A stretch of DNA of 64,000 nucleotides from Physcia stellaris (Eukaryota > Ascomycota > Lecanoromycetes > Caliciales > Physciaceae): contig JABSSW010000006.1 in the NCBI GenBank assembly GCA_018902385.1, forward strand, positions 930,001 to 994,000, written 5' to 3'. Positions 1 to 64,000 of this stretch are shown one piece after another. The first letter of the stretch is position 1, and every line of letters starts with the position of its first letter. Below the pieces are notes generated by a model. It was not told the DNA's origin, ran no database searches, and saw nothing but the letters and a program-made list of their open reading frames with translations. The position numbers and the translations under genes were made by a program.

Positions 1-3000
1 TCGTGAGGAGCGGCCGCGAGGTGGAATGGTCAAGTGAACAGTCCAGAGGAGAGACGGTATGTCCATTGAACGATGATTTCGAGCATCGGTCATTGTTCGA
101 GAGGCTGAAATATGATAGGCAACTGCGAACCTGCTACCCGAGTCCGTCGAATGGATGAACACACTGATGTCAATCATCTGGGGCCTGATCAACCCCGAGA
201 TGTTCGCTGGAGTGGCCGACACGTTAGAGGATGTCATGGGCGCTTCAGTCCCAGGGGTCATTGAAAATGTACGTGTAGCAGAGATCAACCAGGGCAACAA
301 TCCCATCCGCATCCTTAGTCTACGTGCCTTGCCGGACACGCATGTCAAGGAACTCAAGGATAGCATCCATGAAGAGAACAAGAAGACCAAAGACCCCCAG
401 GAGGCGGCCGCTGCTGAAGAGGGAGGAGATTACTATAATCTTGAAGCCTCGTTCGCATATCATGCGAAACCCAGCAACGGCAAAAGTGCGTCTTCCAAAG
501 CACGAAATATGCATATGCAGCTTGTTTTCTACCTTGGCATCAAAGGTCTTTTTGGAGTCCCACTGCCAATCTTTGTGGAGCTGCAAGGGCTAGTCGGGAC
601 GGTACGACTACGTCTACAGATGACTCCAGATCCGCCTTTCCTGAAGACATTGACGTTCACCCTCATGGGACTACCCCAGGTCCAGGCCGGCTGTATACCC
701 ATGGTTGAGAAGGGAGTCAATATCTTGAATTTACCGTTGATATCAAACTTTGTCAATTACGCCATCGGAGCTGCAGCTAGCATGTATGTAGCTCCGAAGT
801 CGATGTCGCTAGATATGGGTGCAATGCTTGCTGGTGACGACATTCAAAAGGACACCATCGCCATGGGGGTTATGTGGATCCGTATCCATCGAGCGACAGG
901 CCTAAGCAAGCAGGATAAGCGAGGTAGCAAAGGTGGTGGTTCAGATCCTTACATCACCCTCTCATTCTCGAAGTTTAGCAAGCCAATGTACTGTACCCGT
1001 GTGATCACCGACGATCTAAATCCAATCTGGGAAGAAACGGCAGCGTGAGTTTACTAACCCTTTTCCAGCGTGATATCACTGATAATCGACAGATTGCTCG
1101 TTACACCAGAGCACATCAAAGCGGACGAGCAACTAAGTGTGGAGTTATGGGATTCTGATCGCTCCAGCGCAGATGATATTGTCGGCAAAATTGAGCTGTC
1201 GATGCAGAAAATGATACAGCACCCCGGAAAAATGTACCCCCAAGTATCGAAATTAAGGGGAATGGAAGCCGACAGCGAGATGCCTGGTGAGTTACGTTGG
1301 GAAGTTGGGTATTTTGGCAAACCGCATTTCAGACCTGCTCTAAGGACGGACGGCAAGAACCCAGCGTTACCAAAGGAGCTCCAAGACAAACAGGAGTTAC
1401 AGGACGAGAAGGGAAATCTAAACAGCGATTACGCTGACGCGGTAGCTCACACACCTCCGGACCCCCTTTGGCCCAGCGGTATCTGCAGTGTGGTCATTCA
1501 CCAAATTGTCAACCTTGAGCTCGAGAACATCCAAGGTAGTGAAGGGAACAGAAAAGGCAGAGAGTACGAGCCTGCTCGGGAAGCTGGCGAGAACACTGAG
1601 GAAGAGAGCAAAAAACTTCCAAGCAGCTACTGCACCATTTTGTTCAACGATCAATTGGTGAGCTTTGTCATGATCCGTTGCGTGACTCGGCTAACACATG
1701 CAGGTTTATCGTACCCGTGCCAAGGTTGTCAGCAGCAAGCCAATCTTCAATGCTGGGACTGAGAGATTTATGAGGGACTGGAGATCGGGCATCGTGACGA
1801 TCACTGTACGTGATCAACGTCACAGAGAGCATGATCCCATCCTTGGCGTTGTGCCTCTGAGATTATCGGATATTCTGCAAACGAGTTCCCAAGTCACTCG
1901 ATGGTATCCGCTTGATGGTGGCATTGTGAGTCCGGTTTGGTTCTCTACGTAATTGTGGTACTAATCCCTCCAGGGGTTCGGACGCATACGTGTATCACTG
2001 CTGTTTAGGAGCATTGAGACGAGATTACCGCCCAATATGCTCGGATGGGATGTTGGTACCTTCGAATTTCTCTCTGATAGAATCCTAGCTCTCAACTATC
2101 ATGCACATGCCAAGCTGAAGATGAGGACTGGTGGTAGCAGTGGCCAGATCGGCAAGACGCAGTGTCGAGCTCTACCCGAGGGTGACGGCATGTTTTGGGA
2201 CGTAGCGAAAAAGGAAGGTAAGAACAATGTCCGGCTACCAGTGAAGTTCCGGTTCCGCTCTCCCGTGGTTTTCGAATTCCATACAGCAGGAAAACGTGGA
2301 GCACAAGCTTACGCCATGATATGGCTCCATCACCTAATTGACAACACTGAAACGAATATCAATGTTCCTGTCTGGACGACCAAGAACGGTGCCCGACTGA
2401 TGCAGAATTACATTACCGAAGACAATATCAAGGCCAAGGAGACTACAGGACTTGAAGATATCCAGGAAATCGGGCGTCTACAGTTCCGCTGTCAGTTCAA
2501 AGCCGGAACTGACGAGTCTCACGAACAATTCGTTGTCGACAACGATACAAGAGAAACTTTTGAGACCTGGGAAGCTTGTCTTGCTGAAGGCGTTCGGGAG
2601 AAGAAAGTGACACAAGAACTTCCTCCCAAGGTCCAGGAATTGCACGATCAATCTCTGACCGAGGGCCGTGACGTGCTGCAAGAAGCTGACCCGGAAGAAC
2701 GTAAGAAATGGCTCTCCAAAGATGGAGAGGACTGGTCAGGAGCCTTCACGCACGACCCGAAGGCCTACGTGGACTCCTCTGGTCGCAAGCGTAGAGAGCC
2801 GGGCACTCAGCCACCTCTCCATGACCCACATGATCCGAGCAGCGATGATGACGGTATCGATGATGAAGATGAGACCAGCGACTCGGACTCGGTTGATCTC
2901 GGCCTGCAAGATGCAAACAACAGCGGCGGCGTCAAAGAGCACGGCAGAGCATCCGAGAGTTCCGCGCTGCAGAACGGTACCGATGATATGGAAAAGACGA

Positions 3001-3254
3001 GGGAAGTTGCCAATAAGAGGACAGAAAAAAGAAAGAATCGTGGGTTACTACAGTGGAAACCTGTTAGGGTAAGTTTCCTTCTGTTTGCTGACCGCCACAG
3101 CTTCTTAGGACATTGAACCTATTGATTAACTTGTCGATAGAACATGGCGTTCGCGAAGGACGAAGCTAAGTTCACTATGAAGAAGATGAAGAACAAGATG
3201 ACAGGAGGATTAGGCGGACGGGAGCCAGGGGTGGAGACCGAAACGCAGACGTGA
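1..3254 (+). CDS. SMP/C2-domain lipid-transfer protein, N-terminus cut by window edge
   Basis: The exons read 1-56, 143-1044, 1093-1657, 1704-1925, 1974-3068 and 3141-3254, and all phases agree. The protein enters at the left edge already inside the gene, so the N-terminus is missing. After a short charged stretch comes an SMP-like lipid-binding domain (from WMNTLMSIIWGLINPEMF to about base 840). A first C2 domain follows, with the acidic loops GGGSDPYITLSFSK and ITDDLNPIWEE. A second C2-like domain contains SYCTILFNDQLVYRTRAK and later DWRSGIVTITVRDQ. The C-terminus is charged, with Asp/Ser runs and a basic tail. The order SMP then tandem C2 is that of tricalbin/extended-synaptotagmin proteins and of the fungal C2 family that includes S. 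pombe Mug190. These tether the ER to other membranes and move lipids. The lipid-transfer role is inferred from the family. The coding frame and domain calls are clear. Confidence 0.88.
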
Positions 3255-3658
3255 TTGCCTTAGTCGTTTCTTCGTCCAGGCACGTTGTCTTTCTGCACAC
3301 GGCCCCCATCCTCCAGCGTTAAGCGTCGCAACATTGTATTTTCTGGGCTTTGGGTGTTCCAGGGAAGAGAGTGTAGTGAAGAGGCGCTGTTCGTCTAGCC
3401 ATGCACCGTTGTATCAGGTCTTTCCTAGGACGGTTGGAATACCAGGTTTCTGAACCTAGCCTGTGATAAGAGGCAGGATTCTGTAGTTTTCATGTATTAG
3501 TTATCAAACCTTCACCTCATCATCGCCCATGAATGTGTAGGAATTGCAAGCACTTGCTCTTCTACGAAGAAACGCTAGTCAGAACAACCGAAGCTTGTGG
3601 GAAAGAGCTTTAGCGTGGATTGCAGATTTTGATGAGGAAGCATTGCTTAAAATGGTTT
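3255..3658. other. Intergenic spacer between convergent genes
   Basis: This is about 400 bases between the stop of the C2 protein on the plus strand and the stop of the hydrolase on the minus strand. It should hold both 3' untranslated regions. No further gene or repeat was seen. Confidence 0.6.
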
Positions 3659-4588
3659 CTAGGTAAAGAAATCTCTTATATGCTGCAGAAGCTGATCCGG
3701 AGCCTCTTCAGGAATATAGTGACCGCACTGCAGCGCACAGCTAGCAGGGTCAACGTTCTCGCATTGAGTTCGCCATTCGGCCAGAGCATCAAATTTAGCT
3801 TCGATTATACCAGTCTTTCCCCATATCACTCTAAGCGGGCAAATGATTTTCTTCTCGGCCTGCTCATCTGCATTCTGTTCATCAATATCCTCCTGCATGC
3901 TAGCACGGTAATCCTCGCACATTGCGTGAGCGGTATCATGCTCTCGGAACTGATTTACGTAATCCGTCAGAGCCTGTTCAGCAAATATGTCGTGGCCATG
4001 GCCTTTTAAGCACTTGTCGGCCATGACCTCAGGACTCGAGGTCATCATTTTCTCCGGAAAAGGGGCTGGTTGGGTCAAGAAGAACCAATGCCAATACGCA
4101 TACGCAAATGTCTGATCTGTTGCCGCGTACATTGCTTTTGTTGGACAGATATCCAAGATCATTACTTTTCGTACGCGGTCCGGATGATCAACACATAGCT
4201 TGTGAGCTATACGTCCGCCACGGTCGTGGCCACAGAGAAAGAAAGAGTCATAGCCTAGCTGCGACATGACCGCAATACAGTCTTTGGCCATCGCACTTTT
4301 GGCGTAAAGGCCATGGTCTGAAGGGTCCCGGCTCGGAGCTGATGGCTTTGACGAAGCGCCATAGCCTCTTATATCTATCATAATCACACTGTACTCCGTT
4401 GTGAGTTTGTTGGCAACCTTATGCCAGATCGCGTGTGTTTGGGGAAAGCCATGAAGCAAAAGCAACGGTGAGCCGGATCCGGCACGGATACCATGTATAG
4501 AAATGTCGGGCTCTACAGGGAGACTGAAAGATTTGAACCCAGGGAAAAGTTTAGACATGGTGATAGCCAGATATGTGTTTATACGCAA
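3659..4588 (-). CDS. Fluoroacetate/haloacetate dehalogenase-like alpha/beta hydrolase
   Basis: A single-exon gene of 309 residues, or 299 if the second ATG (MSKLFPGF) is used, which fits the family better. It reads closely along bacterial fluoroacetate dehalogenases of the RPA1163/FAc-DEX type. The oxyanion motif is HGFPQTHAIWH. The nucleophile elbow GHDRGGR gives Asp122 with the carboxylate-binding Arg123 and Arg126. LDICPT supplies the acid residue Asp146. The halide pocket is His167-Trp168 (AYWHWFF) plus Tyr227 (MCEDYRAS). The base is His290 in CGHYIPEEAPDQ. Numbering is from the first ATG. The full set of residues known to bind fluoride and carboxylate is present, so hydrolytic C-F or C-Cl cleavage of a 2-haloacid is a fair prediction. 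An epoxide or other ester substrate cannot be excluded. No signal peptide is seen. Its promoter is shared with GEP3 and carries a MITE-like element. Confidence 0.88.
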   Translation of the reverse strand: MRINTYLAITMSKLFPGFKSFSLPVEPDISIHGIRAGSGSPLLLLHGFPQTHAIWHKVANKLTTEYSVIMIDIRGYGASSKPSAPSRDPSDHGLYAKSAMAKDCIAVMSQLGYDSFFLCGHDRGGRIAHKLCVDHPDRVRKVMILDICPTKAMYAATDQTFAYAYWHWFFLTQPAPFPEKMMTSSPEVMADKCLKGHGHDIFAEQALTDYVNQFREHDTAHAMCEDYRASMQEDIDEQNADEQAEKKIICPLRVIWGKTGIIEAKFDALAEWRTQCENVDPASCALQCGHYIPEEAPDQLLQHIRDFFT

Positions 4589-4717
4589 GCCTATAATAGT
4601 GGTGGAATAGATTGGTTGAACCGTTTACTACTTACTATAGATTCCGGCTTGGTCAGTAAGTGTCGAGAGTGTGCTGGTGGCAATGGTATAACGTACGTAC
4701 TTGTCGATCAGCTCTAA

Positions 4718-5038
4718 TTCTCGATTTCAAAACGCTTGCGACTCCTTGGCTTTTTTCTTCCTCTCAAGACCCCGCCACTCACCAAAATGGTTTCAAAAAC
4801 CTAACCCTGATTGCACATTTCACCGGATTCTATAAGCCAAATTTTATCAATTCGATCAAAAATTGACTTTGAGATGTTATTTTACTTCGTTGTGGTCGCA
4901 TAAGGCCACAAAGCTAATTTTATTATTTTCGAATAATCTGAAAACGTTGTTGTTGAGTTACATTTTTTTGAAAATTGAACATTAAAGGGGTTGAGGGGAA
5001 AAAAAGCCAAGGAGTCGCAAGCGTTTTGAAATCGAGAA
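4718..5038. mobile_element. MITE-like element with 39-bp perfect terminal inverted repeats
   Basis: Bases 4718-4756 and 5000-5038 are exact inverted copies over 39 bp. The arms begin TTCTCGATTTC and end in a run of T. The 243 bp between them is AT-rich with no coding capacity, and the arm similarity continues imperfectly inward through a C-rich stretch. A TA dinucleotide lies one base outside the left arm and two bases outside the right arm, which would suit a Tc1/mariner-class target site, although the exact ends are uncertain. The size (321 bp) and absence of a transposase fit a non-autonomous MITE. It sits in the intergenic region between the dehalogenase start and the GEP3 start, 77 bp before the first in-frame GEP3 ATG. 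Confidence 0.75.
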
Positions 5039-27261: not shown

Positions 27262-27677
27262 CTATCACCGTCAGATGAGACGGTTGAAGAATCGAATGAT
27301 GGGGGATAGTTGTGAAGAATATGCCAACCAGCTGTACATGAAATTCAAGTCACTGTACGACTGGTAATCCTCTGGGTTTCAGAAAAATCTACTCGGAGTC
27401 TGGTCGTCTGGCTACTTGCTTCATGTAACAAGGGAACGTTTCAGTGCTTGGCACAGTAGAACTAGTGAAATAGTTCTACGGATATGTTGTCTCAGCTAAT
27501 CAGACCCCTGGCTAGTTCAAAAGCCTTCATTTTTCGCCAGAGGGTCTGAGCCAAAGATCGGGTAAATCTTGTTTTGAACGTTCGCGACTGCAATATTACA
27601 CAAAAACAGCACGATAAGCTGATAACTAGCGTTTTTATCGAGTATTATTGATTTAGCTCAAAACATTCCGAGCGCTA

Positions 27678-27760
27678 TCAGGGTTATCTCAGGGTTGAGC
27701 AGCATAATCAGGGTTATCTCAGGGTTGAACAACATAATCAGGGTTATTTCAGGGTTGAAG
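27678..27760. repeat. 30-bp tandem repeat with paired CAGGGTT cores, 2.8 copies
   Basis: Copies start at 27678, 27708 and 27738. Each unit carries CAGGGTT twice, 12 bases apart. The copies differ at only a few positions. The array lies upstream of GET2 in non-coding sequence. It has too few copies, and no regular spacers, to be a CRISPR. Confidence 0.8.
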
Positions 27761-50877: not shown

Positions 50878-51756
50878 AAGACATCCGAACAGCCTTGAGC
50901 TTCATCATTACCGAAAAATGTCTGTAATCTGATCATTGTTTCACACTCCAGGTCTGATTCAGTAAAACTTGACTGCTCAGAATAATGCCTCACAATCTCC
51001 TGATATTGCGCCAGGCCGAGGAAGAGACGATGTTTCTCACTATAGATCTCTTCTCTCTTGTACTTCTGTCTCTAGGTCCTAGTCTCGTGTATGGTCTCTC
51101 AATGTAATAGAATCTTGCATCTACAATTTTGCGTAAACTTGTCATTGATGAAACTTAATAAAACTTCAACATTCGATTGCAAAATTAAATGAGTCAAATC
51201 ATAATTGTGTGAATCAACAATCGTTTCTTTTTCGTTAATTAACACGCGAATTTTTTCAATTTGCGAATAAACATAAAAAATACGATTCAAACAACGCTTT
51301 TTCGCATTCAATAAAATCGATTCGAAAATCATTGCAATGATTTTACATGTTGCGAATTCGTAACATATTGCGTTAAATTTTTAACAAACGCAAAAATTTT
51401 ATAAATCGACAATAAAATAACGATAATACGACAAGTAAAAATACAAAATCAATATTTCAAATTAAAATCATAATTTAAATTTGAATAACAAAATATAAAA
51501 ATCGATTTTCGAAAATATTATATTACAATTGTGATGATTTTGATTTCGAATATTATGTTATATCAAAATCGTCAAACATGTTAATTTGATCGAGTTTAAC
51601 GTTTTGATCGATAAAATATAACATTTCGAAAATTTTCATTTTTTTCGTTTTCACGATTCAATTTTATCATTATTCACAATGTTATCACGATGATTCATCA
51701 TCGTTTTGTAAATATTGTTACGAACATGTTTGACAAATAAATTTAACAAATAGATA
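50878..51756. other. Transition into the AT-rich TE block
   Basis: Composition changes sharply near 51110-51130. To the left is ordinary mixed sequence. To the right the sequence is dominated by A and T, with cytosine kept mainly before A or G. Short open frames in the right half have no recognisable motif. Confidence 0.6.
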
Positions 51757-54235
51757 CAGTAAATTCTCGTTACAGAAAGTCGAAATTTCGAAAACATAAA
51801 TTTTTTGTAACTCGAAACTTCTTGTAAGTCAGATGATTGAAATCTAGAATTATGTTACAATTCTAGAAGTTAAATTTTTCTGAGCAAATTATCGCAATTT
51901 ATTTTCAAAAATATCGAGCAAATTTTCATACAAATCGATTCTATTTTTTCAGCGAGATTTTCTGATTTATTAAAAAATCAATTCGTTCATTTTTGCAGTC
52001 TTTACATCAACGTATGAGTGCGAAGATTTTTCGCAAATCAAATGCAAATCAACTATTCAATTATTTTAATCATCGATTTAATTTTATTTGTTGATCGACA
52101 TATTGTTTTCTTCGTTCGATTTTTCGTTTATATCGTTCAAGTTGACAAATGACTTCAATATCGTCATGCTTCTGTTGTTTTTCGTACAATTGAATGAGTT
52201 TCAAAGTCGCAATAGCGATTTTGACGATAATTTTGAATTTCACTTTTTTCATTTTCGATTTTGATTTCGTTAATGATTTTTCAAGTCGATATTTCATAAT
52301 AATCTTTTCACAATCTTTTCATCGTTCTTGTCAATCGAATCGATTATTATTTCGACTTTTGAACGATCGTAATGAGCGATCGATCAGTCGTTGACGTCAG
52401 ACGTACGATTTTTACGTTTCAAAGCAATGATATTTTTGATCATTTGCAATCGAACGTTTTGCAAAATCTGTTTCGATTCAGAAAATTGTTGCATTGTTCG
52501 ATCATGTTTTCGACTAAATCGTCGTTTGTTTGAATTATTTGATACATTCATATTCGGAATCAATACGATTGATTTGATTCAGCAATTGTTGATAATTTTG
52601 ACGATGATTTTATTCTTTCAAATTTCAACGACTCATTTGACGATTTTCAGAACGTTGATGATTTGATGTAAATTTTTTTCGAATTTTGCATCGAATTTTT
52701 TCACGCAATATCGAAATCATTTGTTTCGATATCACAATTTTCATGACGCAATGATATTTTGATCGAGCGATTGACAAACGCTCGTGATATTGATCGACAA
52801 AAACAAGATTTTAATATTTTGCATGAATTCGTTTTCTTTCAATTTTCGTAAATCAATATCGATTTCATGCGTCGAAAAGTCATCTATTAAAAGCACGCAT
52901 TTTTCGTTGAATATTTTTTTTCGAAATCAGTTCAGATATTCGTCAAATATTTTATCAATTATTCAAGCAAATCGATTGCTTCGTCACATCATACGTAAAT
53001 TTTCGACGTTTACATCATGAAATTCGAACGCTCGAAAATTCATGACAATTTCAATCAATCATGATTTGAGCTTATGCGAATCAGAAACATTGATGCATAA
53101 AATCGTCGTTATTTTGATTTTGTTTTTTTTTATATTTTCTGTTGATTCGTTCGAAAGAATATTATCAAACATTGCTCGTCAAAATCATTTTGTTTCATTC
53201 ATATTGTATACATCATGCAACGAGAAGTCAAAATTCAATCAAATTTTGATTTCGTTGCGTAACTTTTCAAGATTTTGTTTCAATTGTTGTTTATTCATTT
53301 CGTTTGATTCGTCATGTCGAACATGTTTTTTCGTATGATGACGAATTTTGTATTCGTCTAATCAATCATTCGAAGTTTTGAATTTCTTGATCGTGCTTTT
53401 GATTTTTTGATATTCAGAAATCAGCTCGGCAAGTTTATTTCAAATCTTCAAAATTCATTTTTTCAGTATATTTTCGTTTATAGACATTCGTTGCTTTTTC
53501 TTTTTCAATTGTCATTGAAACAACGCATTTTTCATTTTTTTTCATTTTTCTTGTCTATTACGACAATGAGAGTTTTGAATTTGAGTGTCGTCAAGTCAAA
53601 ATTCATGCGAATCGATGCAACGACGAATTACATCGTTTGAAAAATCGTCGTTTTCGTATTTTCGACGATATATTTGTCTAACGATTGCGTATGAAAAAGA
53701 TTTATTTTGTTTCAAACAATAATCGAATCAGAATTTTCTAATGAATTTTCGTTGTTTCACGATATAATTGTGACGTTTTCGCTTCGACGAAGAATTTATA
53801 AATGTGTTGAATGAAATAAGATTGCTTTGAATCAACGACGAAACAGAAACAAAAAAAGTTGAAATCTGAAAGAAAATCGAAAAAATATATTCATGACGAA
53901 TTCAACGATGTTGAGAAAACGAAATTGACAAAATTTGAAAACACGAATGCAAAAAATAAAACATCACGAAAATGTTCGATTTGTATGAGCGATTTTCAAC
54001 GAATCAACGATTCAAATCGTGTTTCAAATTTATGCGAAGTTTGCATTTGATTCAATTAATTTTTTTATTAATTTTTTTATTAATTTTTTTACAAAGAGTC
54101 TGATCAATTGTATCGAAGTATTTCGTGTAAATCGAAATTTCGATGATTATATCAAAAAATCAAAATTTCGACGTTTGACATTTTTTGTAAAGCGAAATTT
54201 CTTATAATTCGACTTTCTGTAACGAAAATTTATTG
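51757..54235 (-). mobile_element. Pogo/Tigger-type (Tc1/mariner superfamily) DNA transposon relic
   Basis: Terminal inverted repeats of at least 28 bp start CAGTAAATTC at 51757 and CAATAAATTT (read inward) at 54235. They share TCGTTACAGAAAGTCGAA and differ at two transitions. TA lies immediately outside both ends, the target duplication of this superfamily. On the minus strand between about 53700 and 52050, scattered frames carry a CENP-B/DDE_1 transposase: DVYNMNETK (first Asp motif, altered), TESTENTKKNK, then RITTILCINVSDSHKLK, then DEYLNWFRKKYSTKNACF and SVCQSLDQNIIAS. Many stops and frameshifts make it inactive. The 2479-bp length is normal for a fungal pogo element. The cytosine context is the same CpA/CpG-only pattern as in the rest of the block. 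Confidence 0.85.
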
Positions 54236-55063
54236 TAATTAATATGATATGTGATCGAACAACGAATTATGTTTTAATTTTACGTTGAAATTAACGTGAT
54301 TTGAAATTTGACGTCGCACATTGTTTGCAATTTTAACATTTTGTATTTATTTGTTTTTGCAAATTTATTGTTTTCGTTTAATTAATCAATAATACGTTTA
54401 TTCAAACACGATTCATGATATTACAATAAATTTTCAATTTTATCGTTCGTCGTGATACGCGAACGTTCAAAAATAAAATTTCAAATCGATCAAATTCTTT
54501 TGACGAAACAAACAACGAAAAAATTCTGTTGATCAAACAAACGATCAAAAAAAAATTTGACGAGACATTTGACGAAAATCGTAAAATAACAAATCGAATT
54601 TTCACGCAAACGACGATAAAAAACGACGAAAAAAAAATTGATTCGATTAATTTTTTTTTTTATCATTTTTCAATTTTTCATTTCTATTTATGACTCAAAA
54701 TCATCACGAAACAACTTTTTTCGAATTTTTTTATTTCGATGAAACAACGTTTCAAAACGTTACGTTTCAATGTAAATCGTATGTTGCACGAAATCAATGA
54801 TAATTTTCTCGACGAAAATTTCGTCGAACAATTCAAACGTCATCGATTTGTTTCAACGATCGAATTCATAAAAATGAAAAATAACAAAATCATTCATTTT
54901 TTGAACATCGTCATTATCGATCAGCTAAAATGATAAGTCAATCAAAAAATCAACGATTTTTTGAAAAAAATCGATCGAATACGCATCGATCGTGACAATT
55001 ATTTGAACGTTTTGATTTAATATCAAAATTTGTACAATATTGTCAACGTCGATCGTGACGAAT
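54236..55063. other. AT-rich repeat sequence interrupted by the LTR element (left part)
   Basis: Unassigned AT-rich sequence between the pogo element and the LTR fossil. Its right end carries the 5-bp target CGAAT repeated after the fossil at 62555-62559, so this stretch and the sequence right of 62554 were once contiguous. A frame near 54739-54930 is open but matches nothing I recognise. Confidence 0.6.
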
Positions 55064-55218
55064 TGTTACAAATCGATTTTTGTCTGATTTGAAAAGCTTG
55101 TTTTTGTTTGATTTCATTGATTTGACTAATCGACTTGACATTGACATTTATTCGAGTTTTTTGTATTTAACATTTTATCATTTTCTTATTATTTCATCAA
55201 TGAATCAATGTTTTTACA
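55064..55218 (+). repeat. 5' LTR of the Ty3/Gypsy fossil
   Basis: 155 bp with TG..CA ends, preceded by CGAAT. It aligns end to end, without gaps, with the copy at 62400-62554. Confidence 0.9.
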
Positions 55219-58200
55219 ATTAATAATATCATTTTATCAATCAATCGTTATTATCGCATCAATTGATTGCGTAATAACATCAATCAAATCAACTTTTGTA
55301 ATCTATTTGCAAAAGTTTTTTGTTTTTTTTCAATTCGTGTTACATCGATCGATTTCGTCAATTTATTTATCAAGTTTTTTTGCTTTTTCATTGTATGAAT
55401 ATTTTATCTCAATTTTATCTTGATTTATCGACAACAACAAATTGTATTTGTTTTTCTGTGTGTTAGAAAGTTTTTCACAATTCGTTCAAACTGATTTCTA
55501 TCAACAATTTCGTGTCATCAATTTTCATTTCGAAAACACACGAGTTTCATCGTTTTCTTCAAACTAAACATCGTGAAATCGAAAAATTTAACGAAAAAAT
55601 CAAACAAATCATAATTGTTATCGTCGTTTCGAATTTTTCTTTTAGTCGTTTTGCATTCAGTTTTCGAAATACAATCAAATCAATTTTTTCGAAATCGATC
55701 GAATTTTCTGTCGAATGAAATACGAATATCAATGTTTTTCGACGAGTTGTTCAAAAATTTCGTGAATATATTACTGTTTACAGAATTTCAATTATTTTTC
55801 GAAATTTTTTGAATTCACACATTACGAATTCAATTTTCAACATTTTCAACTCGTCGAACGATTCGTCAATTACAAAATTTTTTTGAATTTCACGTCATCG
55901 TGACGTTTTGCTACAGTCGATTGTAAAAACAATCGAACGACGACGAATATTTACGTTCAGTTTTTCGTCAATTATCAATCAAGATCAGCGAAGTCGAAAT
56001 CTATTTCTATTCGAATTTATTCGATTCAACGATATCAATAACAATTTTGCAAAAACATTTGATTCAAATTCAATTGATATTCGAATCATCTCAATTATTG
56101 AAAAAAAAATTCGTGACAACATGAATCAAAATACGCAAATTGACAATTCAATTCAATCGTTTGCGTTTGATTTCAACGAAACTCAACGTCGTGAAATAAC
56201 GAAAATCGTTGTTGTCGTTTTAGAACATCGACGTCGTGATCGAAATGACGATGAAAATTTAAGTTACAATTCGTCGAATTTCGATAACAATTTTCAGTTT
56301 TCAGTTGATCATAACAACAATACTGACGAGTAAAAAATGAAAAATATTGACTTTTTCGATTTTGATTACGATAACGACATTATCGTCAACGTGAATAAAT
56401 CAATAAAATATTTCGACAAACACATTTATTATATTGATGTTTATGTTTTCGTCGATCGTTTGAAAAATCTAATTTCGTTACGAAATGAAAACAAATTTCG
56501 TATTGTTTTGTCACAATGTTTTCGTGATTACGTTCAAGAATGACATTCATTGATTTTGTTCGAATTGAAAAAGAATTTGTTACGAATCGTTTCGTTAATC
56601 ATTTGATATCAGATTTTAATCAAATCATTCAAAAAACGAACAGTTCAAACATTACAGAATTTACAAAAAAAACAATATATCATGTCAGACGCTAAACAGC
56701 AACGTAATTCTCGTATGTACGTTCAAAACATTTTTCGACATATCAGAATCGTTGAATTCGAATTTGTTTTCAATCAATTTATTTTAATTTGATTTAATTT
56801 TGATTATGAATTTCGACGCGACATTTCAAAATCAAAATCGAATATTACGATACGAATTTTTCTTGATCATTTGAAGAAAAAATTCGACATATGATTCGAC
56901 ATAGTTAACAAGTTCGTTTTTAGTTCGAAATTTAACAATAGCAATCGTTTCAATAAACAAAACAAACGTGATCGACAAAACGAATTTTCTCAATCGTCAA
57001 ATGAATTTAACGCTTTTTTTTTTCAAGTTTATCGTTTTGTCGATTATTTCGTTTTCGTTCAACAAAAACAAATTTATCAAAAACAGTCGTTCGTTCAATC
57101 AGAACGTCGTCAAATCGTTTTGTTATTCGCAAAGCAATTATTGCTGTTAACGTCAAAAAACGCGTTCGATTTCAAAAATCAATCACGTCAACAAAAAAAA
57201 ATTTGACGATCGTGATAACAAAAATTTCAAATGTAAAATTTATGTTTTGAATGAATTTGAAAAGAAAAACGATCAAAAATCAATTGAGAAAGATTTTTTC
57301 ATCGACGAGATTAGCGAAAATCAATCAGCATATTATTTCGAAAATTTAATTTATTATGATTTTGATCATTTTAACGATTTTGATCATGAATCGACAATTA
57401 ATCATTTCATTTTGTCAATCGTTTTTATTTGTCGTCGTTGTACAAAGTTTTTCGTTTCAAACAACAAATTTCATAATCACATTCGTAATGTCGAATGTTC
57501 TGATTTTAATGTTCGATTGAAAAAGTTTTTTTCAAATCAACAATTGAATTTTTTTAAAAAATCGAAATCGATGTTATCGATTCACATGTCGTCATTATTT
57601 TTATTATTAAAATTATCAAAAACTCATTTGAGTCAAATTTTAATCATGATTCAATATCGATTGTTTCGTCAAATGTTGATTTTTCAAAAAATATTGAAAT
57701 TGATTGTGAATATCGTGACTGAAATTACGCGAAAATTGACGTTGTTTTGTTCGAAAAAACTGAATCAAAATTCGTTTGCATTGATATTGAATCAAAAATC
57801 ATTATTGCGAATCGTCGATTTTTTTTTCGTCAAAATTTTGATTTGTTTATACGTATTATGATTACATTTTTTATTGTACGAGAAATAATTATTGATCAAC
57901 ATCAAATTTTTGAATACGTCATTGTTTCGATGTATTTTTTTGATCAAAAAAATGACAAAATCGTCAAAATTATGATTCGTCGCGAAATTCATTTGATGAA
58001 CAATTTCAAAATCAACATGTTCATCGACAATGATGTCATTGATTTTGAAAAATGAAACATTGACAACGAACATAACAAAATTACGATTGACAATTGCGAC
58101 GTTATTATTTTTATTAACATTCGTCGTCGATCGTCAATTGATCAATCGATGCACAAATCAATGCATATCAAAAAAACAATCATTGTTTCGTCGCAATCAG

Positions 58201-61200
58201 AAATGATCATTTCAATTCATTATTTTGTCGACAATATTTTTAATGATTGAGATTATTTTTTCGAATCAAATGAAATTGAACTTATTTTGTATGTTCATTT
58301 TATAAACATTTTTATCGAAATTATTCTTGTTCGTAATGACGACAAGCAAATTGTCAAAATTTCACGTAATTATCGTTTAAATTATTTCATTGAATTCGAT
58401 TATTTAAACGCGTTTTTCGTCAACGACGATAACGTTGATTTGATCATGAAAACATTTCGCATTATTCACAAAATCTCGTGATTCAAAAAAATTATCGTCA
58501 TTTTCGTCACGACGTTGATCGCTATTATTGTCGTCGTTACGTCAATTCAACTAATCATCATCGTTATTTCGTTGACGATACGCATCGAATCGATTTCGTT
58601 TCTGATCAATGTTGACAACGTTAATTTGTCACAAATTTTCATTTTATTTAACGATTTGCGAAAACTTTTCGATTTGCGAAAATTTTCCGATTTGCGAAAG
58701 TTTTTCACAAATCAGACTTTCGACTTTTCAAAAAAATTGAAATTTTCGATTACGTTTATCATTTCATCGTCGAACATTGTGTTATTCAATAATGTCACTA
58801 TTTATTTTTTCGACGAGACGAAAGCTTTTCGCAATCTGATCGTTGAATTTTCGATTTTGTGAACAAACAGCGAATTTGCTGATTTATCGAAAAAAAATTG
58901 AATGAAAATATTTCTTAAAACAGACTGAAAAAATAAAATCTTTGAAAAGACTAAAATGTATTTTTTGAAAATTAGAAATCGTGCTTTTGTCGATAAAATT
59001 TTCGACGAATTACACGATTTAAATCGATTATTTTGAATCAACGAATTTATTTCATTCAGTTATTCAGTGTTTTGTGTTTGAAAAAACGTTAATGAAAAGC
59101 GTAAAAATCGCGTTGTCGTAAATATTCGAAAATTTAATGTCATCATTCAATCGAATGTTTATTTTTTGTCGTTTCAAATGAAAATCATTTCAATCGTCAA
59201 GAATTGTTTTTATATTATTGTCGTGAATGCATTCGTTTTTTTTTATCAATGACGAATACATTCAAATGATCGACACAAATTCATTGTAATGAATTATCGA
59301 AATCAGAAATCATTCAACGTTGTCGTAATGAAATATAAAAATTCGTCTGTTTACGTGCAACGACAAATTGATCGATTATTTCGTGTTTATCGAAAATTTG
59401 TCAAAACATACGTTGATGATATCGTCATTTTTTCACGAATTTGACAAGAACACGTTAATCATTTGCGTCAAATATTTATCAAATTGATTAACGTCAATAT
59501 ATTCATCAAATTTATTAAAACATTCATTGATTATTCGTCAATGCAATTATTGAATCAGAAAGTCGACTCGCTTGATTTATTCACTAGTGAAAAAAAACTG
59601 AAAATCATTGCTAAATTTCAGTTTTTTCGTATTTTTCGTCAACTGGAAATTTATTTTGATTTTACTGATTGAATGAAAAAATACGTTTTATTTTACGTCG
59701 ACGTGTCAAGATCTTTACAAAAAAAAAACTATTTTGCTAAAGTCTGTTTTCAAGAAAGAAAACGCTAAAAAAACTTTCGTTAATCGAATTAAAATCGACA
59801 ATGCAACGTCAAAAAAACGAATTTCATACGAAATACTTCAATTTTTATTTTCGAAATTTTTTTATTTCATTCATCATGATTCGAAACGTCAAATTTATGT
59901 GAATTTGAATGTCAACAAAAAGTTCGACATCGACGTTGTAATTTATTATGTTAAAAATTTTTTTATCAAGTCAAACGAATATTCAGTCAAATCGTTTATT
60001 CAGTCAATAATGTTTTTGTTCAAATTACTGAATTCGATCGAAATTCGCTATTGATCGATTGAGATGAAAATCGCTGACATAATGTGAATATTGCGAAAAA
60101 TTCGTTATTTCATCGAATCATTCATTTCGTTTATCGTTATTTACATTGATCATGACGTTGCGTTAAACATAATCAAACAAATTATTTTTTCGTTTTCGTC
60201 GACAAATAAATTGAATTTTCGACTAATTCGTGTCAGCGATTATATTCAACGTTTCGATTTGAATATTCGTCATAAATCAAACAAGTTTCATTTTGTGTCG
60301 AATGTCTTGTTTAAATTCGTTAATTTCAACGATTCACAAACATCGTCGAAAGAAAAACTCGATGCTTTTTTCATTTTCGTCGACGTTGACACAAATCATT
60401 CAAATGTTGACGCATACTTTATTTGCTCGTTAATAAAAATGAATGATGTTTTTCGACTAAAAATTCTAAATAATTACAAAATCGATTTTAGTTGAAATCG
60501 AATTTTGAACGTCTTAAACATCGAAAACGACGTCAATTTTTTTTTTGAAAAAAAAAATCAAAAATTTATTTTTCGCGTTGATGATTTTATTGACGATCAC
60601 GTTTTCATTTTTCGTCGACTTTGTATATCAAATGCGATCGTCAAAAATGTGCTGAAAATTGTTCATGACGACTCAAATGATCATTCAGAATACGCAAAAT
60701 GTTATGAGCAAATCGCTTCGACATAATATATTCGTAATTTGATTCGTCAATTACGCGATTATCTGAAATATTGTTCAAAATGTCAAATTAATCGAATCAA
60801 ACGTCATCAATCACACGATTCGTTACAATTTATTTTGTCGTCAATCATTTCTTTTCACACGTTTAATTTAGATTTTATTTTTGCGTTGTCAATATCACGC
60901 GTCGAACAATTCAACGTCGTTATGTCGATTACGTGCAAGTTCACAAAACGAATTATCATTGTGTTAGACAAGAATATTTGAACAATCGCTCAATGAAGTC
61001 GAATTTTACTGAATCAATTTGATTTCGACGATTGAAAATTATTCAAAATTTTGATATTTGATCGAGATCGAAAATTCATGAAACATTTCTGACGAGAAAT
61101 TTTCACACGTCTTGATGTGAAATTATTGTACAATACAGTTTATCATTCACAAATCGATGAACAATCGAAAAAAATTAATCAAACAATCGAAAAAAACTGA

Positions 61201-62399
61201 TCAAACAATCGAAAAGAATTAATCAAACAATCGAAATTGTTTTCAGATTTCTCATTAATGTGTTGAATAATTTCGCAAACTGAATTGAAATCATATCTGA
61301 TATTCAACGAGACATTAACAATTCGATAGTCATCGTTATTGACAAAACGTTTAACGAAATTTCGTATGAATTTATTTTTACGCAAATTTTCGATTTGTTG
61401 AAATTTTTCGAAAAATCGTCGCTATCGTTATCGCAAATAACTCGACAAAAAACTGCAAATGTTTTGATTTTTGCACAAATGAATTTCAAATTCTATTACG
61501 ATCGCAAACATCAATCGATTAATCTCGTCGTCGACGATTGAGCACAAATTCGTTTTCACAAAAATTACGACATTTTTTCGATCGCAATGCTAAATAACAA
61601 ATTTAATTAACAATACATTGCGTTTTTTCGTGTCACGAAAAAAATCGATAAATTAGTTTATCGACTGAATATTTTCAAAAAATAAATTATTCATTCGATT
61701 TTTTTTATCGTTCAGTTGAAATCATGTTTTGATTCAGTTAAAAAAATTTTTCGACGTCATCGTTTTATTCAATCGAATTTTGTTTTCGTCGAAAAAAACA
61801 CTGATTTGATCAAGTTTTTTGAACTGAAACGTATCATCAACAAGCGAATGATTGTTCGACGTGAAATCGAATATTTAATTAAATAAAAAAATTATGATTC
61901 AAAATATGATGTTTGAAAAAATTTATCGAAATTGAACGATGTCATGAATCTGATACAGAAATATGAAAATTCAATTCGTCATATGATCGATTTATTTGAT
62001 CGTCATCGTTTGTCGAAATCAATCATGTTGAAAAATTTTTCGCAAATCAAAATAAAGCGATTTTCGTTAACAACAAGTTTATTACTAGAAAATTTTTCGC
62101 GAACAAGACAAATTTCGTCAACAACAAAATTATTATTTCGTCATCGATTTTCGTTTTTCGATTTTTAATCGTCGTGTTACGAAAATTTTTTTTAATTATC
62201 TTGTCGACGTCGCAAATATCGTTAATTTTCTCGTTCGAAACGTTGATGTTACGTCGCTCGAATCGATTAACTAAAAATTGAAAAATATCTGAAAAAAAAT
62301 TATTGTTAAAAAGAACGTATGACTAAAAGTTTATTGAAACATGATTAGAATAATTAAAAGTTACGAAAACGTAATCGATTTTTCTTTATTGAAACAGAT

Positions 62400-62554
62400 T
62401 GTTACAAATCGACTTTTGTTTGATTTGAAAAGTTTGTTTCTGTCTAATTTCATTGATCTGATTAATCGACTTGACATTGACATTTATTCGAACTTTTTGT
62501 ATTTAGCATTTTATCATCTTTTTACTATTTCATCAATGAATCAATGTCTTTACA
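62400..62554 (+). repeat. 3' LTR of the Ty3/Gypsy fossil
   Basis: 155 bp with TG..CA ends, followed by CGAAT, the same five bases that precede the 5' LTR. About fifteen transitions and no transversion separate the two LTRs. Confidence 0.9.
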
Positions 62555-64000
62555 CGAATTGATCAATACAAACGTTGAATTCGATAAAATTCGTAAACAA
62601 ATGAATACATTGAAAATTAATTACGAACAAACGCGTGATCGACTTTTAATCAAACAACACGATTACATTTTTTTCAAAAAAATCACGACGTTTTGTTAAT
62701 CACGATTCGCAATCGTACACGAAATTTTGATAACGACGATAAAAAAACGACGACAAAATCAACGTAATTAATTTTTTTAATAAAAACAAACGACGTTCGA
62801 AAATTTATTCAAATTTTTCTAAATTCATCGACGAAATGAAATTTATTTAACGAATTTGAAAAACAAAAATGCATAATAAAATGACAATCAACGTTGATTA
62901 TTACGATACGAATATAATCGCAATCATTATTGTGATTGATTGAATTGAAAACGATATCGATAATTACATACAATCGATACGTGATATCGACATAAATCAT
63001 TTCAAAAACTGACATATAATGTTGAAATTTTTGAATTTCATTTTCGAAAATTTTGATTTCAAACGCAATATGCGTATTCAATTTCGAATATTGATCATGA
63101 ATACACAAAACTTTCAATTTTTTTATTTCATTTTTTTTTTCGTTTTAACAATTCAATCGATTATAACGAAATCATCAAAATCGAAAAATTAATGAAAAAA
63201 AATTTCTGAAATTTGAAAAAAAACAATGAATGTATATTTTCGCGAATTCATTACGTTCGATGAAATTCGAATCATTTTGCAACAAATATACAATCGACAA
63301 TCGAATTTTCGAAAAAAAAAATCGCGATTCGTCAACAACGTTTTGAATTGTTGTTAAGAAAAATAATGTTTAATGCAATTGTTGATAAATAAATTGTTAA
63401 TTATCTAGAAAAATGTGTGCGAAAAAATATTTACATGTTCGTTTTGATCGTTTTGATCGCGTTAATTTCATTGAAATTGTCACGTAATGTTTTCGACGTC
63501 AATTTCTAACAACATGTTCACTTTTTAAAGAAAAAGACGACGTTTTCGTCGTTTCACGAATTTTTCAAATTTTTCAATTTTTCGTGCGATATTCATGATC
63601 TAATATTTATGCGATTGACGATAGAAAGTTCAGAAAATATGTCGATGAATGCGAAAAAGTCAAAAAAAATAACGAATAGAAAATAATAATACAATTGAAA
63701 ATTTATCGAAACATTTTCGCAATCATGTTTTGATGCAAAAATTGCAAATTCGAAATTTTCGATTTTAATAAACGAGCGCTTCAGACGATCGAAAAATCAA
63801 ATCGATTAATATGACGAAACGTTAATTATTTTTTGTTAATTGATCGATATTTCGTTTTCGTCAAATTCGTTCTTTTCGATTTCATTTAAATGATATTCAT
63901 AGAAAATATTCTGAGCGACGATTTCGACTAAATAAATTTGACGAAATTTATCGTCAACGAACGTTTTCGACGAGATTTTGAAATTGTTGTTTTGATCGTT
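62555..64000. other. AT-rich repeat sequence interrupted by the LTR element (right part)
   Basis: Continuation of the sequence split by the LTR fossil, running to the window edge. It has the same composition and cytosine context. No family could be assigned from the short remaining frames. Confidence 0.6.

Follow-up and report, generated by a model that had tools for sequence, protein, structure and literature searches.

Neurospora crassa and other ascomycetes are subject to repeat-induced point mutation (RIP), a RID-dependent process that turns C:G into T:A and has CpC among its minor targets. Its main target in most fungi is the cytosine of CpA (PMC12543289; PMC2621366). A 2025 survey of 1,239 genomes reports the CpA preference as shared by RIP-like defences (PMC12543289), and Amselem 2015, distinguishing signatures of CpA, of CpT with CpA, and of CpG, found CpA in all five RID-bearing species compared (PMC4352252). 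CpT is mutated beside CpA in Botrytis, Sclerotinia and Magnaporthe (PMC4352252), in Colletotrichum truncatum, with TpA/ApT of 0.93-1.68 (PMC6180176), and in Anisogramma anomala, with a mean TpA/ApT of 1.14 (PMC10998396). Four reports lean towards a precedent for the pattern described below: by alignment, CpT to TpT is the dominant change in RIP-capable fungi (van Wyk 2021; PMC7882544) and CpT dominates in N. crassa Tad1 (PMC2621366), the ribosomal DNA (rDNA) of N. crassa shows raised CpT (PMC5555474), and in Monilinia the classical CpA to TpA changes are joined by double mutations of CpC to TpT (PMC8959702). RIP-like mutation at CpG or TpCpG has been described in Microbotryum and a weak CpG bias in rusts (PMC4352252), and methylation induced premeiotically (MIP) methylates without mutating (PMC4352252; PMC2432034). 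Here we describe a window of 64,000 nucleotides from Physcia stellaris (assembly GCA_018902385.1, 44.0 Mb in 147 contigs; contig JABSSW010000006.1, C6:930001-994000), in which the block 51130-64000, reaching the window end, is depleted of cytosines before C and T (CpY). No CpC-led or CpY-only RIP was found in the open-access literature, most subscription papers lying outside that search.

The first-pass annotation of the window had noticed the bias in rows 55501-55680, 60121-60180 and 62881-62940, where 50 cytosines were followed by A 27 times, by G 20 times, by T three times and by C never, and a recount reproduced these figures exactly. Across the whole block the dinucleotide counts are CC 1, GG 3, CT 199, AG 199, CA 839, TG 689, CG 793 and TA 733. 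When compared with 500 mononucleotide shuffles, CC+GG stands at 4 against 423-557 (mean 482) and CT+AG at 398 against 1195-1364 (mean 1279), in agreement with the rarity of all four that had been claimed. Chance or base composition as the cause of the bias is ruled out by the shuffles. CpA had been called abundant, and CA+TG (1528) indeed exceeds its shuffle range of 1213-1377; CG (793) is likewise above its range (197-283) and TA (733) below (1627-1774). Hence neither CpT and CpC at composition levels nor a depletion of CpA, the two outcomes named beforehand as contrary to the proposal, was observed.

The bias is present in six of six sub-blocks from 51125 to 64000, in both elements of the block and the sequence around them, as the annotation had it. 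The GC content (fraction of G plus C) of 2-kb windows from position 52001 on is 0.265-0.295, and the left edge is sharp, lying at about 51125 (51100-51180). The host part was said to be free of the bias, and every 2-kb step of 1-50000 is of ordinary composition, with a GC of 0.45-0.53 and 16-28% of cytosines followed by C. With C targeted before C or T instead of before A, the classical RIP indices read negative on the block, TpA/ApT being 0.44 (host part 0.74) and (CpA+TpG)/(ApC+GpT) 1.27 (host part 1.23). The CpY index (CC+GG+CT+AG)/(TC+GA+TT+AA), however, is 0.88 in the host part 1-50000 and 0.06 in the block.

The first proposal, that cytosines in repeats undergo mutation with a preference for CpY, is borne out by three yardsticks, namely rDNA, an unmutated relative and half-mutated copies, and CpC is hit more than CpT. 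For the rDNA, the one 5.8S match (among the best 39 of 2644 candidates) lies in a CpY-mutated copy, L065 (C41:44399-47552), and a DNA search of the assembly found no second rDNA copy. Since rRNA is conserved, the Rfam consensus was taken as the letters before mutation, over 22 alignment rows; two small-subunit rows (consensus 1348-1490) and seven gapped positions after them were left out for poor alignment. Where both bases are strictly conserved, C had become T at 53/60 CpC (2 other) and 35/63 CpT (1 other), but at 0/48 CpA (1 other) and 1/51 CpG (2 other), a context difference with a Fisher p of 1e-31; A/T were unchanged at 369/378 of the strict sites. Conservation of C alone gave 66/81 for CpC and 45/83 for CpT, and in a smaller count both strands were alike in mutation. 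L065, a dead copy, is the only rDNA found, and the working array seems to be missing from the assembly. Its surviving 5.8S letters would faintly suggest a Eurotiomycete-like fungus, against which stands the near absence of DIM-2 from that class (PMC12543289).

The unmutated relative is a Ty3/gypsy element with reverse transcriptase (RT), RNase H, integrase and zinc knuckle domains by Pfam. Two of its copies, L070 (C12:58300-63300) and L071 (C5:1164600-1169400), are unmutated, 95.9% alike over 4.8 kb, with a GC of 0.53. In 24 mutated stretches compared with L070, some pairs of which may come from opposite ends of a single copy, C to T was found at 2043/2143 CpC (95%), 1871/2043 CpT (92%), 369/2283 CpA (16%) and 147/2169 CpG (7%), and T to C at 172/7908. 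The three stretches closest to L070 have 7-11% for CpA and 1-3% for CpG. Within the window, 62634-63350 (minus strand) is homologous to L070 at 67% identity, with C to T at 88/92 CpC, 75/85 CpT, 25/98 CpA and 8/91 CpG.

The third yardstick consists of full-length copies in earlier states of mutation. In L073, L074 and L075 (5 kb each), the mutated fractions are 0.751, 0.859 and 0.941 for CpC to TpC, 0.419, 0.475 and 0.763 for CpT, 0.030, 0.034 and 0.051 for CpA, and 0.021, 0.024 and 0.021 for CpG; the background from the unmutated pair L070/L071 is 0.040, 0.035, 0.029 and 0.024, respectively. In L073 and L074, CpA and CpG are not above this background (Fisher p 0.63-1.0). The flank of the L073 copy, a fresh sequence, gave CpC 126/140, CpT 41/94, CpA 1/96 and CpG 3/117. 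The 5′ base matters little (in L073: ACC 137/165, CCC 112/147, GCC 150/214 and TCC 123/169), and among the second 3′ neighbours, CCC is lowest within CpC (0.76) and CTA highest within CpT (0.67).

The two strands of these copies were followed separately, with tracts called by a two-state model whose rates were set by hand. The minus strand of L073 forms a single mutated tract, 20-4999 (CpC 364/410, CpT 153/288). Its plus strand is mutated at 1362-2493 (CpC 57/64, CpT 47/83) and 2829-4566 (81/96, 44/97) and in two short tracts, 25-134 (4/4, 4/8) and 1152-1297 (9/9, 7/10), but untouched at 146-1139 (5/66, 2/57), 2520-2814 (0/13, 0/31) and 4570-5000 (2/22, 0/31). Mutation is confined to one strand over stretches of 0.3-1 kb, and the mutated plus tracts extend up to 1.7 kb. 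In L074 the plus strand has a tract at 25-821 (CpC 40/44, CpT 22/53). Doses were compared over five of the eight mutated L073/L074 tracts, the two short L073 plus tracts and the L074 plus tract being omitted. The five long tracts show CpC of 0.84-0.89 and CpT of 0.45-0.57, or about 0.87 vs 0.50 per tract, and both strands of L075 show CpC of 0.94-0.95 and CpT of 0.75-0.79. By CpT, this corresponds to a dose of about one in the five long tracts and about two on both L075 strands, and one dose may represent one event.

The same CpY depletion was found on counting other repeats of the genome, a check that the first-pass annotation had recommended. The 71 loci fetched, after four repeated places had been dropped, were retrieved through their similarity to mutated repeats, searched genes or rDNA and are not a random genome sample; 54 of them, those with a GC below 0.33 (212,350 bases), carry the signature, the base after cytosine being A in 44.9%, G in 44.1%, T in 10.7% and C in 0.34%. 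Searches with the two window elements return loci from many contigs. Beyond the window, reading covered the terminal 4.5 kb of the contig (L068, C6:1022000-1026457), which is also saturated, with a GC of 0.24 and with 0.1% of cytosines before C and 2.7% before T. No telomere repeat was seen in the final 300 bases of this contig end.

The block opens with a CpY-mutated stretch, 51125-51552 (CC+GG 0, CT+AG 7, CA+TG 49). No second copy of it turned up: a DNA search of the assembly with 51000-51545 returned only itself and one 20-base match. Mutation has apparently spread here past the repeat edge and then stops sharply. The roughly 430 bp are mutated as heavily as the repeats, which provides a measure of the spread. 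The adjoining 51553-51754, the left part of a multicopy repeat with matches in the assembly, is saturated (CC+GG 0, CT+AG 2). This repeat has at least 40 further matches (the best 40 of 278 candidates), of which 39 share 88-96% identity across 130-184 bp lying in 51538-51717, and 51702-51756 matches other loci as well.

A DNA transposon remnant (51755-54237) sits inside the multicopy repeat, and its two flanks are contiguous at other places. Judged by its 30-bp terminal inverted repeats only (51755-51784 and 54208-54237, 93%), and by no protein domain, it would be Tc1/mariner-pogo-like. Two more full-length copies are present in the assembly, on C29 (93%) and C14 (92%), and the C/T differences of the remnant are 169 before Y, 14 before A and 6 before G when compared with L007, and 104, 30 and 8 with L006. 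A heavily mutated remnant of a long terminal repeat (LTR)-type retroelement follows on the plus strand (55062-62554), with terminal repeats at its ends; eight related loci were compared over parts of 57700-60700. The terminal repeats of one LTR element are alike at insertion. Here, over the 155 columns compared, 15 differences separate the left (55062-55218) and right (62398-62554) repeats, both on the plus strand and 90% identical; 14 of them are C/T before Y and one before A. A Pfam search of five open pieces of the element at E 0.01 gave no match. Short tandem repeats lie within it at 58652-58704 (18-bp unit) and 61160-61236 (22-bp unit).

The CpY context also shapes the damage to coding sequence, as it makes stops only from TGG (to TGA) and not from CAA, CAG or CGA. 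The stops in RT matches (the best 150 of 527 candidates) comprise 250 TGA, 33 TAA and 3 TAG, the dominance of TGA being what TGG to TGA at GpG would predict. Ten of the 150 matches listed are without any stop; intact copies exist.

In repeats, the DNA transposon, LTR elements and the rDNA copy alike, C had changed to T on both strands at CpY. Like RIP, the process has C:G to T:A as the dominant change, hits both strands, mutates repeats, spares the host part (in the loci fetched), apparently spreads into flanks, and occurs in a genome with RID homologues, which are candidates for its cause. Unlike RIP, it does not prefer CpA (0/48 in the rDNA strict sites and the 3% background level in L073/L074) or enrich TpA (TpA/ApT 0.44), and CpC is the best target. 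The CpA feature having been tested and found absent, we do not class it as ordinary RIP, although it is RIP-like by mode of action; canonical CpA RIP is rejected by the composition, the rDNA and the half-mutated copies. With the CpT-type RIP of Botrytis, Sclerotinia, Magnaporthe, C. truncatum and Anisogramma it shares CpT as a target, but there CpA signatures stand alongside and CpC, in the reports cited, is not named as main target, whereas here TpA/ApT is 0.44. The Microbotryum and rust type also has a non-CpA context; CpG, however, is kept here (1/51 in rDNA and the 2% background level in L073-L075; TCG 5/208 in L073). The MIP protein of Ascobolus, Masc1, belongs to the same family as RID, but in P. 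stellaris bases are changed. An ultraviolet-like or APOBEC-like context was also rejected, given that the target is set by the 3′ base and that TpC is plentiful, and so was editing of retroelement RNA or complementary DNA (cDNA) only, the rDNA copy and the DNA transposon having been hit.

A search for RID/Dim-2-type methyltransferases, as the annotation advised, returned two diverged RID-type genes and one putatively DIM-2-type gene: the PF00145 profile had four matches in three genes, on C3, C5 and C6. The C3 gene has an ENV motif, a BAH domain below its cut-off and 9bap/9baq as its best PDB match (E 2e-181), and we take it to be DIM-2-type. RID-A (C5) and RID-B (C6) both have PCQ and a late GNAVPP motif, with EQT and EET, respectively, in motif VI; in the catalytic half they are 40% identical across 174 residues, with an N-terminal likeness of 34% over 149. 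These motifs and shared regions place both in the RID/Masc1 group, in which EQT and EET (in place of ENV) are both recorded, EET being known from the RID of Botrytis and Pseudogymnoascus (PMC6709928). Allowing one short intron in RID-A and two in RID-B, both predicted genes look intact. NCBIfam gave only the general dcm superfamily, below cut-off, for the three methyltransferases. CpG in the block stands at 3.3 times its expected level, and with three DNA-methyltransferase-like genes present, CpG here seems not to be decayed by methylation.

Taken together, we consider it likely that the footprint is that of a RIP-like, strand-wise genome-defence mutator with the order CpC > CpT >> CpA, CpG, probably a methyltransferase of the RID family. 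Such an enzyme would find duplicated DNA and track along one strand, modifying CpY cytosines in one pass, and replication would fix C:G to T:A afterwards; the likeliest candidate is a RID/Masc1-family cytosine methyltransferase, of which the genome has two diverged members beside the DIM-2-type gene. Both the enzyme and a sexual timing are what we infer. A more specific proposal, which we put forward tentatively and at somewhat less than even chances, is that RIP was switched from CpA to CpY by one RID paralogue, either RID-B (C6, EET-type) or RID-A, giving no CpA use, kilobase strand passes of fixed dose, stops only from Trp and invisibility to standard indices. The repeat direction suggested by the first-pass annotation is supported, though short of proof: repeats are mutated, the host part is not, and about 430 bp of flank lacking a second copy are mutated too.

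It is unlikely that the mutator is instead the DIM-2-type enzyme, or its CpY methylation in heterochromatin followed by slow deamination. Repeats are the place affected and a gene of this type is present (the 9bap/9baq match, E 2e-181, its name being our own assignment), but the even-dose tracts and sharp one-strand switches are better explained by a pass-like event than by slow decay, and unmutated copies, 96% identical, occur alongside heavily mutated ones. The strand-wise C-to-T tracts also resemble the tracks of a deaminase that edits cytosines on one strand of repeats and has no relation to methyltransferases, whether AID/APOBEC-like or of another kind. AID/APOBEC deaminases select by the 5′ base, whereas here the 3′ base decides; APOBEC_N, the one family searched and one for which the control genomes gave no true positive, had no match in the genome; and with mutations also in rDNA and in a DNA transposon, the process is not confined to retroelement cDNA. 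We therefore regard a deaminase as distinctly improbable.

Some sequencing platforms make systematic C/T miscalls at modified motifs, and modified CpY cytosines in repeats could in this way have been read as T during base-calling or assembly. Against such an artefact stand the 95% complete CpC change in 24 stretches, the one-strand stretches beside two-strand ones and the graded doses, and its probability is very small. The same very small probability attaches to replication or repair pressure in AT-rich heterochromatin that is not repeat-directed: it would accommodate the 430 bp without a second copy, but not readily the sharp edge at about 51125, the strand stretches with their even dose, or the low T to C (172/7908). 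Some loss of CpA in old copies (369/2283) might point to canonical CpA RIP as a first layer with the CpY changes added later. The two least mutated copies, however, have lost CpY while their CpA stays at background, which refutes this order for the copies examined, TpA is depleted rather than enriched, and CpA at the rDNA strict sites is 0/48; we give this order almost no credence.

Several observations weigh against the preferred reading of a RID-family, CpY-directed mutator. It is drawn from sequence, and the CpY specificity might belong to any of the three methyltransferases. Three copies and a model with hand-set rates underlie the dose picture, and the stretch of about 430 bp was mutated with no second copy found. 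CpA is imperfectly spared: L075 has 33/653, slightly over background (p 0.046), looser conservation in the rDNA gives C to T at 6/81 CpA and 4/79 CpG, the old copies pooled above range from 7 to 32% by stretch, and eight saturated LTR-element loci compared with the window have C/T differences 765 before Y, 181 before A, 87 before G and 51 mixed. Finally, L070 and L071 are unmutated, and the differences between them are without CpY bias. By length and similarity they would be expected RIP targets. Their escape may mean that the process acts only at times or is now rare, or that these copies are recent arrivals.

It is an open question how RIP selects the cytosines that it mutates. A system that spares CpA and nearly wipes out CpC breaks the rule of a shared CpA preference, as stated in the 2025 survey (PMC12543289). 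It provides a naturally occurring change of specificity that could be mapped onto the two RID-type genes, and the strand pattern with its even dose gives a handle on how the enzyme moves. As the standard indices are negative on heavily mutated DNA, surveys using TpA/ApT and (CpA+TpG)/(ApC+GpT) can miss such systems, and if a RID paralogue has indeed switched, genomes counted as RIP-free may hold CpY RIP.

Rfam and tRNA scans of the window found nothing. In the host part, the gene at 155-3113 has SMP and C2 domains of the Mug190 type, a family up-regulated in meiosis, and further pieces match Sec16, SDE2, PSP1 and RasGEF domains. A small tandem array with a 30-bp unit in 2.8 copies lies at 27677-27759.

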